A DNA stretch of 60,000 bases, from assembly GCF_026151205.1 (NCBI RefSeq), contig NC_087082.1, forward strand, positions 19,308,494 to 19,368,493, in the 5' to 3' direction. A model generated the notes under the pieces. That model was not told the origin of the DNA and did not search any database. It was given only the letters and a program-made list of their open reading frames with translations. The DNA comes from Bolinopsis microptera (lineage: Eukaryota > Ctenophora > Tentaculata > Lobata > Bolinopsidae). Made by a program: the position numbers and the translations under genes. Shown piece after piece: positions 4,336-54,138 of the stretch (position 1 is its first letter; each line of letters opens with the position of its first letter).

Positions 4336-5193
4336 ATAGAACCCGTCCCCAATCTCGTATTGGAAAATGACTAAACTCAGGTCTGAGTGTGAATACGGGT
4401 GGTACCTGCAAGAGTGTTCATTAAGCATTTAGAGTTCTGTAAAACTGCAGTTACAATTGTGCTAGAGTATTTTTAGTATATACGATTGGTATCAGAAATA
4501 TATCCCTACATGCTTCCAAAATTTGTAAAGCCGTAGTACATACATATCACATTACACCAGAGCCTACACAGTGCAATCTCCTCCAGTCTATCTGCGCCGC
4601 GTATATTTGTATAAGCACACGGCGCAGACTGGAAAAAACCACACTCTGCAAGTTCAATCCAGTGCAATGCTACATGTACGTACTACGGCTTCATCTCCAA
4701 CTTTCTGCACAATGTACTGGAACGTTTTGAAGGAAAAGAAAGAACAAAAAAAGTGATATATATAAATAAAATCAGCGATTTAATGTTAGCCTTGGGACAG
4801 TAACTTTAATTCCCTGGTTTCTAAAATCAGCTTTTTAAAAAAAAATAATAATAAAGTATGTAACGTCGATACCAAACCGATTATTGAGCGATAATAACTG
4901 AGTAGTTGATTCCTGGGTTGCAGAGTCATTCAGATGTTCCAGTCTTCGAATGTGGTTCTTGTTCAGTTCTTGACCAGAAGTGTCTAATGAAGTAAGTCAG
5001 ACAAGCAAACTCTTCCTTAAATGCTCATATAAGTCGTCTCAATCCCAGAAATTATGAATGATGACCCAGTGTAAAAGTGCAGAAATCGGCCAAAAATAAC
5101 AAAGACTAAAAACAGTTAAAAAGTGAAAGGATTCAAACACAAGGAAAATTAATAACTTAGAGCGTAATAAGGAATATCTCCAAACGGAGTTTT
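4336..5193. other. Non-repetitive stretch with a small hairpin
   Basis: No gene recognised. Positions 4583-4632 form a hairpin with arms CCAGTC...TGCGCCG and CGGCGCAGACTGG (a few extra bases bulge in the left arm). The remainder is AT-rich, and the last 30 bases precede the first 276-bp satellite unit. Confidence 0.5.
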
Positions 5194-47850: not shown

Positions 47851-49167
47851 ACAGATACCAAGAAGAACAAGATTGAAGTACCTTCATTTGCAGTGTTGAC
47901 CTATTCTGTTATACTCTCCTTTTGTCGTGTGCTTAATGGATCCGCTTTAAATATCGAATTTTACAGCGTTCCTGCGGGATTTCAGCACCCAAAATGGTGC
48001 AATAACCACTAAACGCTCCATATTTCTCTCAGAAAACCCCGTACGTGAATCTAATCGGCAATCTCATAACCCTATTAACCACAGTTAATTCAATCCACCG
48101 TCCTTAGCTCCACGCTTGTTCCTACCAGGATCGTGTTTTCATTATCCAAGTTCTACATGTAGAGATATCAACACATCGTCCTAAAATGTGACGGCCTGTT
48201 ATACTTATATCAACACATAGTACTTTGTTAAGCGCATCTCGAGCCTGCAGCTCCTTAGCTGACTGTGTTCTTTTATTGCAATTTCCATGCTCGTATTTTA
48301 ATGACTTTACTGTTCGTTTTGTTTTTTGTTATTTGAATATCGCCAGGAAATTGCCCGTTCCATTTCCCCGATTATTGTCGAAATCGTTTTGTCTCGCCAG
48401 ATATGCTCGACGTCGCGTTTTAATATATCTTGGCATTGAGTCAAATTGCAGCAATTTTAAGGGAAGTGATTACTCATGAAAGAATTCTAACTACCATGAT
48501 CCAAAGCTAGCAAAGTTCATTACAGGACACAAAGCATTCATTAAACTTTCGATTAAGTTAGCGTGACAGGTGGTTAAAGGGAACTGGCTAAGTAGTAGTC
48601 AAATCTGTTCAACTAAACCACCTTAATAGTGCCGATGGCGGGCCTGAGCCACCATAAACGTGGTCAAGATCAATGCTTCCCGTAAATCATTAAACTGCTG
48701 ATTTGTTAGTTAGACTTAGAGTTAACGTGATCTCAAGATCAATGTTTCCCGCAATCAAGCAACAAATGAGTTACAGGTGGCTAAGTAGTATGCCAAACAA
48801 ACTGCCAACTATTTACCTTTAATTTTAAACCACCTTACAAGTGCCACGATCTATTACTAGTATCATGGTTCTCAGAATTTGGGTGGAGCAAAATTGTAAC
48901 AATTCTCCCAGGAAGTAATATCACGTGATCGGATTTGAACCACCAGATTCTATACTAGTATAGTGAAATTACCACTTTACCCGCTTTTTGAAGAGAGCTC
49001 TGTATAGCACTGGGCGTTCTTGGACTCGTTCCAACTACTCAGGTATGTAATAGCTGCACTGCAACACGAATTAGTGGTTCAGGTTACTATTTCTCCCTAC
49101 AACTGTTCTCTCTAGCGACGCTCTTTCTCATCGGATAGTTTTACTGTTGTAGATTGTAGTTTCAATA
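47851..49167. other. No gene seen
   Basis: Two related phrases, GTGGTTAAAGGGAACTGGCTA then AGTAGT (48572) and CAGGTGGCTAAGTAGTATG (48775), each followed by CACCTTA-AGTGCC, suggest a diverged duplication. The 84-codon frame at 48225-48479 has no recognised domain. Confidence 0.45.
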
Positions 49168-49210
49168 AGTCTGGTGATACCAGACTATTTTTGATACATA
49201 TATATACATA

Positions 49211-49374
49211 TCACCGGAGACTCGCGGGCGGAACAAAATATTGCACGCGCGTGCGCGTGCAATATTTCATATGTCCCCGAGGGCGCTAGCCCGAGGAGGA
49301 CATATTTTCGTATAGCACGGAGGGCCCATCGGGCCCGAGTGCTATACGATTTTTCCGCCCGCGGGTCGAGGTGA
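49211..49374. repeat. Cloverleaf-forming palindrome cluster (closing stem and three hairpin arms)
   Basis: The closing stem pairs TCACC (49211-49215) and GACTCGCGGGCGGA (49219-49232) with TCCGCCCGCGGGTC (49354-49367) and GGTGA (49370-49374). It encloses three hairpins: 49236-49267 with a perfect 15-bp stem AAATATTGCACGCGC; 49269-49305 with ATATGTCC/GGACATAT and an inner GGGC/GCCC; and 49309-49348 with CGTATAGCAC/GTGCTATACG and an inner GGGCCC/GGGCCC. The whole could fold as a four-way junction in single-stranded DNA or RNA. Confidence 0.92.
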
Positions 49375-49490
49375 TGTGGATTATATCCACCAGCGTGAGC
49401 TTTTTCTTACAGATATTAGTTTTTACTTTAGTTTCTTCAAGAGATCCGTTTTTAATTTAGTTTCACTTTTACTTTCAACATGTTTCTAAT

Positions 49491-49527
49491 ACGATAGTTC
49501 CGCCCTCGAGGCGAGGAATGATATCGT
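49491..49527. repeat. Second structured hairpin
   Basis: ACGATA (49491-49496) pairs with TATCGT (49522-49527) around an inner TTCCGCC...GGCGAGGAA arm. Like the cloverleaf, it is followed at once by TATATCCAYCAGCG, so the same unit of hairpin plus motif appears twice in tandem. Confidence 0.7.
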
Positions 49528-49751
49528 GTATATCCATCAGCGGGCGTTTATCACGAAGCTTCAGTTTGCAACAATCACAGCAAATTAATGTACAAGATTT
49601 CAGAAAAGTTACGAAAAAATCATGTTGCTTTTGGTTTAAGATGTAAAACAGGCCAAAATGACTGACTATAGAACGAAAAACCGGCTGCTATCAAACAATG
49701 TTTCAGCTCATTGTTTCAGGTACATATTTTAATGTAAACGATCAAAATATA

Positions 49752-49957
49752 GGCCCTCTCTCCCTCTCTCCTTCTCTCCCTCTCTCCCTCTATCCCTCTC
49801 TCACTCTCTCCCTATCTTCCTTTCTCCTTCTCCCACTCTCCTTACGTCCCTCTCTCCCTCTATCCCTCTCTCTTTATCTCCCTCTCTCCTCCTCTCCCTC
49901 TCTTTCTCTCCTACTCTTCCTCTATACTTCTCTACTTCTCTCCCCTCTCCCTCCCTG
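49752..49957 (+). repeat. CT-rich polypyrimidine microsatellite
   Basis: About 200 bp of CTCTCCCT units. It gives Ser/Leu/Pro-rich and Arg/Glu/Gly-rich frames on the two strands, which are artefacts. Confidence 0.93.
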
Positions 49958-50023
49958 GAACCAGAACAAGCACCACCAGTCGCCACAGAGCCCTCTACTA
50001 CCAAGTTAGTTGTCATTATCATG

Positions 50024-50065
50024 TCAGTTACCTGGGTAACCAGGGTTACCCGGGTAACCAGTTAC
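50024..50065. repeat. Palindrome of GGTAACC units
   Basis: GTTACCTGGGTAACC is followed by an inverted GGTTACCCGGGTAAC with one mismatch, and further GTTAC. It could extrude as a small cruciform. Confidence 0.8.
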
Positions 50066-50892
50066 TACAGTTTCTGTAGCAGCTACTGAGTGGCTGGACA
50101 CTTAAAAGTAGTAACCCAGAGAGCTCGAGATCACAGTCTGATCATGGACATTTAATATGAAAGTTAAAGATCAAATTCATAACATCAATTTAAATGGCAG
50201 TTTCAAAACAAAAACAGGGCAAAATATCTTTCGGGAACACAATATAATAACACGTAAAATTTCGGCCTACATTTCAAGATTTATCGACTGAACTAGTGAA
50301 ATGAAAATGGTAAACACAACTGAAATGGTAAACACAAAACAATTATCGATACTATAATAGAGATCACCGGCTTAGACTTAAGTCTGAACGTCTCCACGAA
50401 TTTGGTAACCATAGTAACAGTGTGTCAGTGTCACGTGTTAATTATGAGCCAATCATGGCAAACTGCGTGACAACTGATATAGCGTCCGATAGAGGGTGAG
50501 CTCAGAGTTTACAGTTGATACATTCTTTACATCCACAGCATATTGCCGTGGGAATTTAGAAACAGAAACTACACCAATTAGCTCACTGTACGATTATTGC
50601 AATTGAATTCATCGTTAATGAATTAAACCGGTTTCAACTATAGTTCTAAGTAACTTGTAAGTTGTTGTCTTATGGAATTTCACATGGAGACGATACAGAA
50701 ACTGAAAATATTTTAGAGAACTCCGGGCTATATTGCTACTGGTCAAATTAAATGTCACTTGTTAGCGGGCTATATCATGAGCGGGCTGTAGAGATATCGG
50801 GCCCTTTGACAGCGGGCTGGTGAGAGCCCGCTATGCGAAAAAGCGCACGCTGGTGGATATAGTCTAGTATCATCAATACCAGTGGTATTGAT

Positions 50893-53754: not shown

Positions 53755-54138
53755 TCCAATGGTTTGGATTTAACTCTGGATTTCCGGTTGACATGTAAGG
53801 ACAGCAATATAATTTATGTCGCCCAATGCCAAATTTGTAATAAACTTCCCCAGAGCCTAAAAGACGACACCTATTTCGGCCAAACGGTTTCTCCATTTCA
53901 TATCAGAATGAATGGACACAGAAACAAGTTTAAAATTGATAATGAATTGTCATTTGAGAAGTCGGCACTTTCCATGCATTGTTTTCTAGCGCATAAATCT
54001 GATTTCACTATGGGAGTTTTTAAATTAGGTGTAGTAAGAAAAGTCCGACCAACAGCACTTGATAGAGAAGAGAGCATTCTTATTTCAAAATTTAGAACTA
54101 ATATTTTTGGGTTAAATAGGATTGTAGTTACTCGCTGA
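53755..54138 (+). CDS. GIY-YIG endonuclease domain of a Penelope-like retroelement (fragment)
   Basis: The open frame starts after a TAA at 53752-53754 and has no ATG at its head, so it is the 3' part of a longer ORF. IIYVAQC and TYFGQT stand for the GIY and YIG strands. They are followed by the catalytic Arg in IRMNGHR, a Cys-x-x-Cys pair (CQIC), the acidic residue in LDREESILISKF and a closing GLNRI. A Cys and His pattern around them (SALSMHCFLAHKSDF) is typical of the endonuclease that ends Penelope-like element proteins. About 127 codons with no internal stop; every expected catalytic residue is present. No reverse transcriptase is found upstream, where a hairpin and unrelated repeats lie, so the copy is 5'-truncated and probably immobile. 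A domesticated single-domain gene is possible but lacks a start codon or visible exon. Confidence 0.85.
   Translation, partial: SNGLDLTLDFRLTCKDSNIIYVAQCQICNKLPQSLKDDTYFGQTVSPFHIRMNGHRNKFKIDNELSFEKSALSMHCFLAHKSDFTMGVFKLGVVRKVRPTALDREESILISKFRTNIFGLNRIVVTR

Follow-up and report, generated by a model that had tools for sequence, protein, structure and literature searches.

A 164-bp segment of the ctenophore Bolinopsis microptera that can fold into a cloverleaf forms the left end of a transposon of 1,659 bp, which occupies 49203-50861 of the 60,000-nucleotide stretch analyzed here (the window; NC_087082.1, positions 19,308,494 to 19,368,493; coordinates are those of the window, and all element features lie on its forward strand). 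This identity is well supported. A preliminary description made from the sequence alone had guessed that the segment, at 49211-49374, could be the recognition end of a mobile element. We found that a repeated element, whose copies share sharp boundaries, terminates on the left in this segment, and unoccupied target sites and longer copies carrying a tyrosine recombinase gene further back this guess; a protein may recognize the folded form. We consider it probable that a Crypton-like family, mobilized by a tyrosine recombinase that it encodes itself, uses the cloverleaf as its left terminal site, and that this enzyme would act on a folded end and exchange mainly one strand. The window had no Rfam match at gathering scores, and no terminus of this kind was described in the literature searched (titles and beginnings of abstracts, with partial coverage). 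The end can be called undescribed only within these searches, with repeat libraries such as Repbase outside their scope.

Folding of the left terminus

Folding of 49160-49410 produced a closing stem and three arms at 49210-49375, confirming the proposed self-folding segment. The closing stem forms in two parts (49210-49215 with 49370-49375, and 49219-49233 with 49353-49367) and encloses arm 1 at 49236-49267, arm 2 at 49269-49305, and arm 3 at 49308-49349. With DNA parameters, the predicted energy was -79.9 kcal/mol versus -32.1 +/- 3.8 in 200 dinucleotide shuffles (z -12.6), and with RNA parameters it was -138 versus -72.3 +/- 4.9 (z -13.4). None of the 200 shuffles was as stable with either parameter set. 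Of the three hairpins described as perfect, only arm 1 is so; arms 2 and 3 are interrupted by bulges or mismatches. The unit is also longer than the 49211-49374 first given, extending from 49203 to approximately 49385.

We also observed that the tip of arm 1, which reads GT in the window copy (L001), reads AC in most units of the window type (AC in 42 of 54, GT in 5, CC in 1, and 6 unmatched). The L001 unit and one L020 unit are identical except for this tip, a difference that amounts to a precise inversion of the arm, such as would arise if the hairpin had been opened and then re-copied.

The transposon and its copies

A genome search with 49150-49420 (best 40 of 234 candidates scored) detected at least 42 strong matches including the window, 41 of them at 96-100% identity, so that other copies are, as the preliminary description had proposed to check, numerous. 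The matches began at query base 49 or 50 (window 49198-49199, within the terminal TATA run) in 36 of 42 cases. On the other side, 13 of 14 other loci matched the window up to 50861-50873, with nine stopping exactly at 50861; the remaining locus, L009, is a truncated copy. These boundaries, common to copies in unrelated flanks, define an element reading TATACATATCACC...GCTGGTGGATATA. The exact left end TNNATATACATATCACCGGAGACTC occurs 145 times in the genome and the exact right end GCGCACGCTGGTGGATNNA 147 times, each with 0 occurrences of a reversed-pattern control, and for a related end, TATATCCAYCAGCGKG, there are 418 occurrences against 0 of its control. No convincing reading frame was found in the window copy, which we regard as non-autonomous. 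At L016, a shorter copy, some 730 bp long, has the same ends.

The right end lies at 50837-50861, where the terminal TATA belongs to the element and the sequence is an inverted repeat of 49382-49406. It is preceded by a subterminal region (50765-50833) with repeats of a GCGGGCT motif in both orientations by our own reading, part of which folds as a hairpin. Inside the element, a second internal junction at 49489-49549 consists of a remnant of the 3' part of another cloverleaf followed by TATATCCATCAGCGGGCG, as indicated by a 61-bp match at 93% to the recombinase-bearing type. A division of the element into three adjoining units, with one boundary falling at 49512, was rejected, since the second junction is at 49529 and holds the cloverleaf remnant. 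Likewise, reverse-orientation cloverleaves beside a class-2 end were rejected as inversions and assigned to tandem or nested insertions by comparison of L019, L020, L028, and L085.

Association with a tyrosine recombinase gene

At L032, the same cloverleaf and right end stand about 4.1 kb apart with a recombinase-like frame between them. A genome search with this frame returned seven places (17 of 17 candidates scored), one of which is a 47-residue match outside the six that we examined. In five of these six copies (L032, L033, L034, and two in L035), the cloverleaf adjoins the recombinase gene. The L033 copy is truncated and matches others only up to its base 2670, and L034:2050-5416 is complete from right end to cloverleaf. 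The L034 gene is divided into several exons, with one border reading GTAAGT...TTGCAG and other acceptors ending in CAG; these introns therefore favor movement of the element as DNA.

Its last exon matched PF00589 above the cut-off (E 1.1e-6), and another exon matched DUF3504 weakly and below the cut-off (E 0.0024). Across the 24 of 27 listed L034 frames of at least 50 aa that were scanned with Pfam, we detected no other enzyme, the sole extra match being a meaningless one to L31e (E 0.25). Thus a putative tyrosine recombinase is the only enzyme recognized in the full copy. Its putative catalytic Arg, His, and Tyr were assigned by eye against the family pattern. A search of solved structures gave an XerC-like match at only E 0.08, plus an unrelated match at 2.7. 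Two recombinase lineages with 62% protein identity both keep the element layout. This recombinase would be the cognate enzyme of the family.

Three divergent recombinases (L034:4510-4887, L032:723-1043, and L036:1070-1462) were also observed to end in a strongly hydrophobic stretch, with best 19-residue Kyte-Doolittle means of 2.62, 2.67, and 2.27, respectively. These predicted tails look as if they were membrane anchors, which is unexpected for a recombinase. At L035:638-7150, two recombinase-bearing copies that are 99.6% identical face each other as a large inverted repeat, with their right ends 68 bases apart and AT repeats between.

Conservation of the fold

The cloverleaves fall into three groups with approximately 70-86% mutual identity (best 40 of 231 and best 40 of 229 candidates scored). 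Of 98 hits spanning 70% or more of a reference, 89 were complete and 62 distinct, and the compensatory stem changes that the preliminary description had proposed to look for were present among them. When the window structure was imposed on the 62 distinct cloverleaves, 95.1% of 4,352 cells paired. Changes on both sides of a pair occurred in 16 of 73 pairs, compared to 11.6 +/- 1.4 in shuffles (reached in 3 of 500), and in 174 cells, compared to 56.1 +/- 5.9 (0 of 500). Sliding the partner by 1-3 columns reduced pairing to 28-54% and the both-side cells to 21-42, and a set of 12 diverse rows contained 43 such cells versus 16.8 in shuffles. The changes are found in all three arms and in the closing stem, whose strands are 113 bases apart. 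Because both-side changes occur in 16 of 73 pairs and 95% of cells pair across the 62 cloverleaves, the aligned copies indicate that the fold is conserved beyond mere sequence.

Insertion sites

We examined the 4-mers flanking the element to determine which belong to the target. With a pattern leaving only the middle two bases free, 10 of 100 left ends among the matches listed were other than TATA (6 TACA and 4 TGTA), and 99 of 100 right ends among the matches listed were TATA. The single TGCA right end was dropped as evidence on geometry, as it is an 85-bp match stub with no left end in 2,001 bases. A set of 86 distinct left ends comprised 62 TATA, 14 TACA, 3 TGTA, 2 ATAT, 2 AATA, 2 TAAA, and 1 ATTA; targets are thus mostly, not always, TAYA.

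One copy, at C1:12930405-12931149, carries TACA to its left and TATA to its right. When its flanks were joined through a single TACA, this query matched 33 places, 27 of them over its full length, including 4 with 100% identity across 260 bases; four empty-site loci read GGTATACAGGAGC. Because these empty sites hold one TACA, the target kept its TACA and the element brought the right TATA, so that this insertion was exact and without target duplication. A second joined-flank query found no place spanning the junction: the 40 matches comprised the query's two flanks themselves and repeats matching on one side only, of which the most extended, from one diverged copy, reached back to query base 110 of 260. 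The TATA to the left of the window element (49199-49202) is taken as target-owned on the basis of the differing left 4-mers among copies and the TACA empty site.

The L014 copy sits in a dispersed repeat, three unoccupied copies of which read GGGGG-TATA-ATAG, and the occupied site reads GGGGG-TATA-[element ending in TATA]-ATAG. This site alone cannot tell duplication from exact insertion. An interpretation of the TATA on both sides as a 4-bp target duplication is contradicted by the TACA copy. We note in addition that the left flanks of L009, L014, and L071 are alike, so several copies have seemingly landed in one dispersed repeat family, and that the empty site GGGGGTATAATAG was read in L094-L096.

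Among 26 distinct left/right pairs in which the right 4-mer was read openly, 22 were TATA/TATA, 3 TACA/TATA, and 1 ATAT/TATA (L015), and five further TACA/TATA pairs were found beyond these. No pair among those read had TATA on the left and another 4-mer on the right. The odd 4-mer is therefore on the left in 9 of 9 informative copies, for one of which the empty site was read; if core mismatches were resolved randomly, the chance of nine one-sided outcomes would be 1 in 512.

Junctions and an internal splint

We detected 22 exact occurrences of the head-to-tail junction GGTGGATATATATACATATCACC with a single core, compared to 0 for a control. These tandem junctions fit a circular intermediate and do not demonstrate one. 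A scan of viral contigs with the exact junction gave no match. Elements also occur head to head (L020, L063, and L064), and L019 and L020 are read as insertions at internal junctions, so that element ends look like favored targets. A direct tandem array at L022:176-7749 carries the related end TATATCCACCAGCGGG every 1,512-1,520 bp, six times in one orientation.

At 49370-49400, an internal site reading GGTGATGTGGAT-TATA-TCCACCAGCGTGAGC forms an inverted near-copy of the junction between right end and left end, and we refer to it as the splint. Its alignment score was 32 in the window type versus at most 12.5 in 500 letter shuffles, and 23.5 in the recombinase-bearing type versus a shuffled maximum of 9.5. 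When the 1,660-base window element is folded as DNA, the final right-end base is predicted to pair with this internal site beside the foot of the cloverleaf stem. A 733-base stretch with a short copy folds like the window strand (z -13.2 versus 20 shuffles). On a single strand, both termini would thus be predicted to lie side by side on one internal splint.

Flanking features

Outside the element, a short hairpin sequence at 49168-49186 (AGTCTGGTGATACCAGACT) adjoins the insertion of the window copy and is perhaps part of another small element. Farther downstream, an open frame of 124 aa at 53764-54138 may represent a nuclease-type domain of a retroelement.

A model for movement and its alternatives

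These findings support a model in which the recombinase would join the right end to the left end to form a circle, which would then be inserted 3' of an AT-rich tetranucleotide, mostly TAYA, by exchange of mainly one strand. On the exchanged strand, the two ends would be kept next to each other by the stem of the cloverleaf together with the internal complementary site, so that the substrate would be folded DNA, beyond its sequence. The window copy, having lost the gene, would have been moved in trans.

The placement of copies in their targets suggests that the element may move as folded single-stranded DNA, like some bacterial elements. In this more specific form, which we put forward tentatively, the tyrosine recombinase would move folded single-stranded DNA whose ends are held together by the three-armed cloverleaf and the splint, one strand would be joined 3' of a TAYA-like 4-mer, and the second strand would be made by replication.

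Several observations weigh against a folded, one-strand substrate. The structure tested for conservation was derived from one of the 62 rows, further pair types did not exceed those in shuffles (71 of 500 for the 62 rows and 190 of 500 for the 12 rows), and most compensatory cells are common by descent among the three groups, so that independent events are fewer and cells are counted repeatedly. RNAalifold predicted only 33 pairs on the 62 rows and omitted the outer stem of arm 3, a weaker result than the count for the named structure. Palindromes can also be corrected by template switching. The 9 of 9 one-sided 4-mers would also be expected from two-strand exchange followed by biased mismatch repair. 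Within the recombinase-bearing type, the splint is imperfect (CATGAG versus CACCAG), and the L036 recombinase copy has no recognizable end within 6,001 bases. The right end is predicted to pair likewise on the complementary strand, but there the outermost bases of the cloverleaf end are unpaired, and the pairing over long distances was predicted from the thermodynamics of naked DNA.

An ordinary double-stranded Crypton, whose linear duplex ends would be bound and whose arms would be palindromic sites for the recombinase or host factors with the fold as a by-product, appears to us rather unlikely. According to the parts of PMC3212892 considered here, the typical substrate of a tyrosine recombinase is a short core flanked by two inverted arms; the internal site does have arms GTGGA/TCCAC flanking TATA, and elements are found inside each other's TATA junctions. 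Binding-site palindromes, however, would be expected to keep their sequence and not only their pairing, the closing stem with its distant strands has compensatory changes as well, and the 4-mers are one-sided in all nine informative copies.

We regard as improbable that mutation bias, through template switching during hairpin replication, corrected the arms and generated compensatory changes without selection for structure. The GT or AC tip of arm 1 in the otherwise identical L001 and L020 units is what hairpin processing would be expected to yield, but such correction suits short hairpins better than a stem closing around 113 bases and leaves unexplained why the three-arm layout persists in groups that are only 70-86% identical. 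There is little to recommend a role as RNA, such as a 3' untranslated region or terminator of the recombinase transcript: the L034 gene is directed towards the cloverleaf, its last frame stopping at 4890, about 345 bases short, and the RNA fold is as stable as reported above (z -13.4), but gene-less non-autonomous copies retain the cloverleaf, which starts at the element boundary. Finally, an ordinary DDE-type inverted-repeat transposon with folded ends and a TATA target duplication is hardly credible, for although TATA flanks both sides of most copies and one empty site is TATA, the TACA copy without duplication contradicts duplication as a general rule and the sole enzyme recognized in the full copy is a tyrosine recombinase.

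Comparison with known systems

Elements of the IS200/IS605 type, which use an HUH Y1 transposase, resemble the family in that they have subterminal hairpins and insert 3' of a tetranucleotide; this tetranucleotide remains on the left, and the right one belongs to the element. No Pfam match to an HUH Y1 transposase was found in the 24 of 27 listed L034 frames. Helitrons begin with 5' TC, end with CTRR 3', and insert between A and T; the present element lacks these ends, which are TATACATATC and GGTGGATATA. Parvovirus-type terminal repeats form T- or Y-shaped termini and accompany a replication protein gene in the element. Three arms are found here, and only a recombinase was recognized in the L034 frames scanned.

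To our knowledge, there is little direct evidence on end recognition and movement of eukaryotic Cryptons. The family resembles animal CryptonA/I elements in that a tyrosine recombinase is the sole recognized enzyme, in that non-autonomous derivatives outnumber full copies, and in that a circular intermediate has been proposed, as far as the parts of the source considered here go (Kojima and Jurka 2011, PMC3212892). Within those parts, short direct repeats of 4-6 bp, one at each terminus, serve fungal Cryptons as the recombination substrate, the authors saw no terminal repeats in the animal elements, and the main text does not contain the word hairpin (PMC3212892). In contrast, the terminus of the present family has a conserved fold, an inverted near-copy of the end junction lies inside the element, and insertion takes place exactly behind a 4-mer. 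At its two ends stand a left 4-mer, mostly TAYA, belonging to the target and a right TATA belonging to the element, an ownership read from the copy with empty sites.

DIRS elements share with this family a complementary internal region and the absence of target duplication. An internal region complementary to the end junction is found here, with the scores of 32 and 23.5 given above. DIRS elements encode a reverse transcriptase, for which no Pfam match was obtained in the 24 of 27 listed frames of L034, and the L034 gene differs from theirs in having introns. The splint is reminiscent of the internal repeats that PMC4157794 describes for DIRS elements, in the part considered. If the model holds, this internal complementary site would link DNA-only recombinase elements to DIRS retrotransposons.

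Integron attC sites are likewise acted on as one folded strand by a tyrosine recombinase, IntI, in the account given in the portion of PMC2727003 drawn on, but they belong to bacterial gene cassettes and are likened here by description. Vibrio SE elements, strand-biased circularizing integrative elements, also resemble the present pattern but are bacterial, and a cloverleaf is not mentioned in the portion of PMC9345347 considered. One-strand exchange on folded DNA, if true, would place a bacterial mechanism among eukaryotic transposons. The copies of this family are very similar and probably recent, some members bear the recombinase, the ends are defined, unoccupied sites can be read, and the proposed folded substrate can be tested. 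If it moves as a single strand, the family would correspond in eukaryotes to the recombination of integrons and SE elements in bacteria, and it would connect Cryptons with DIRS elements.
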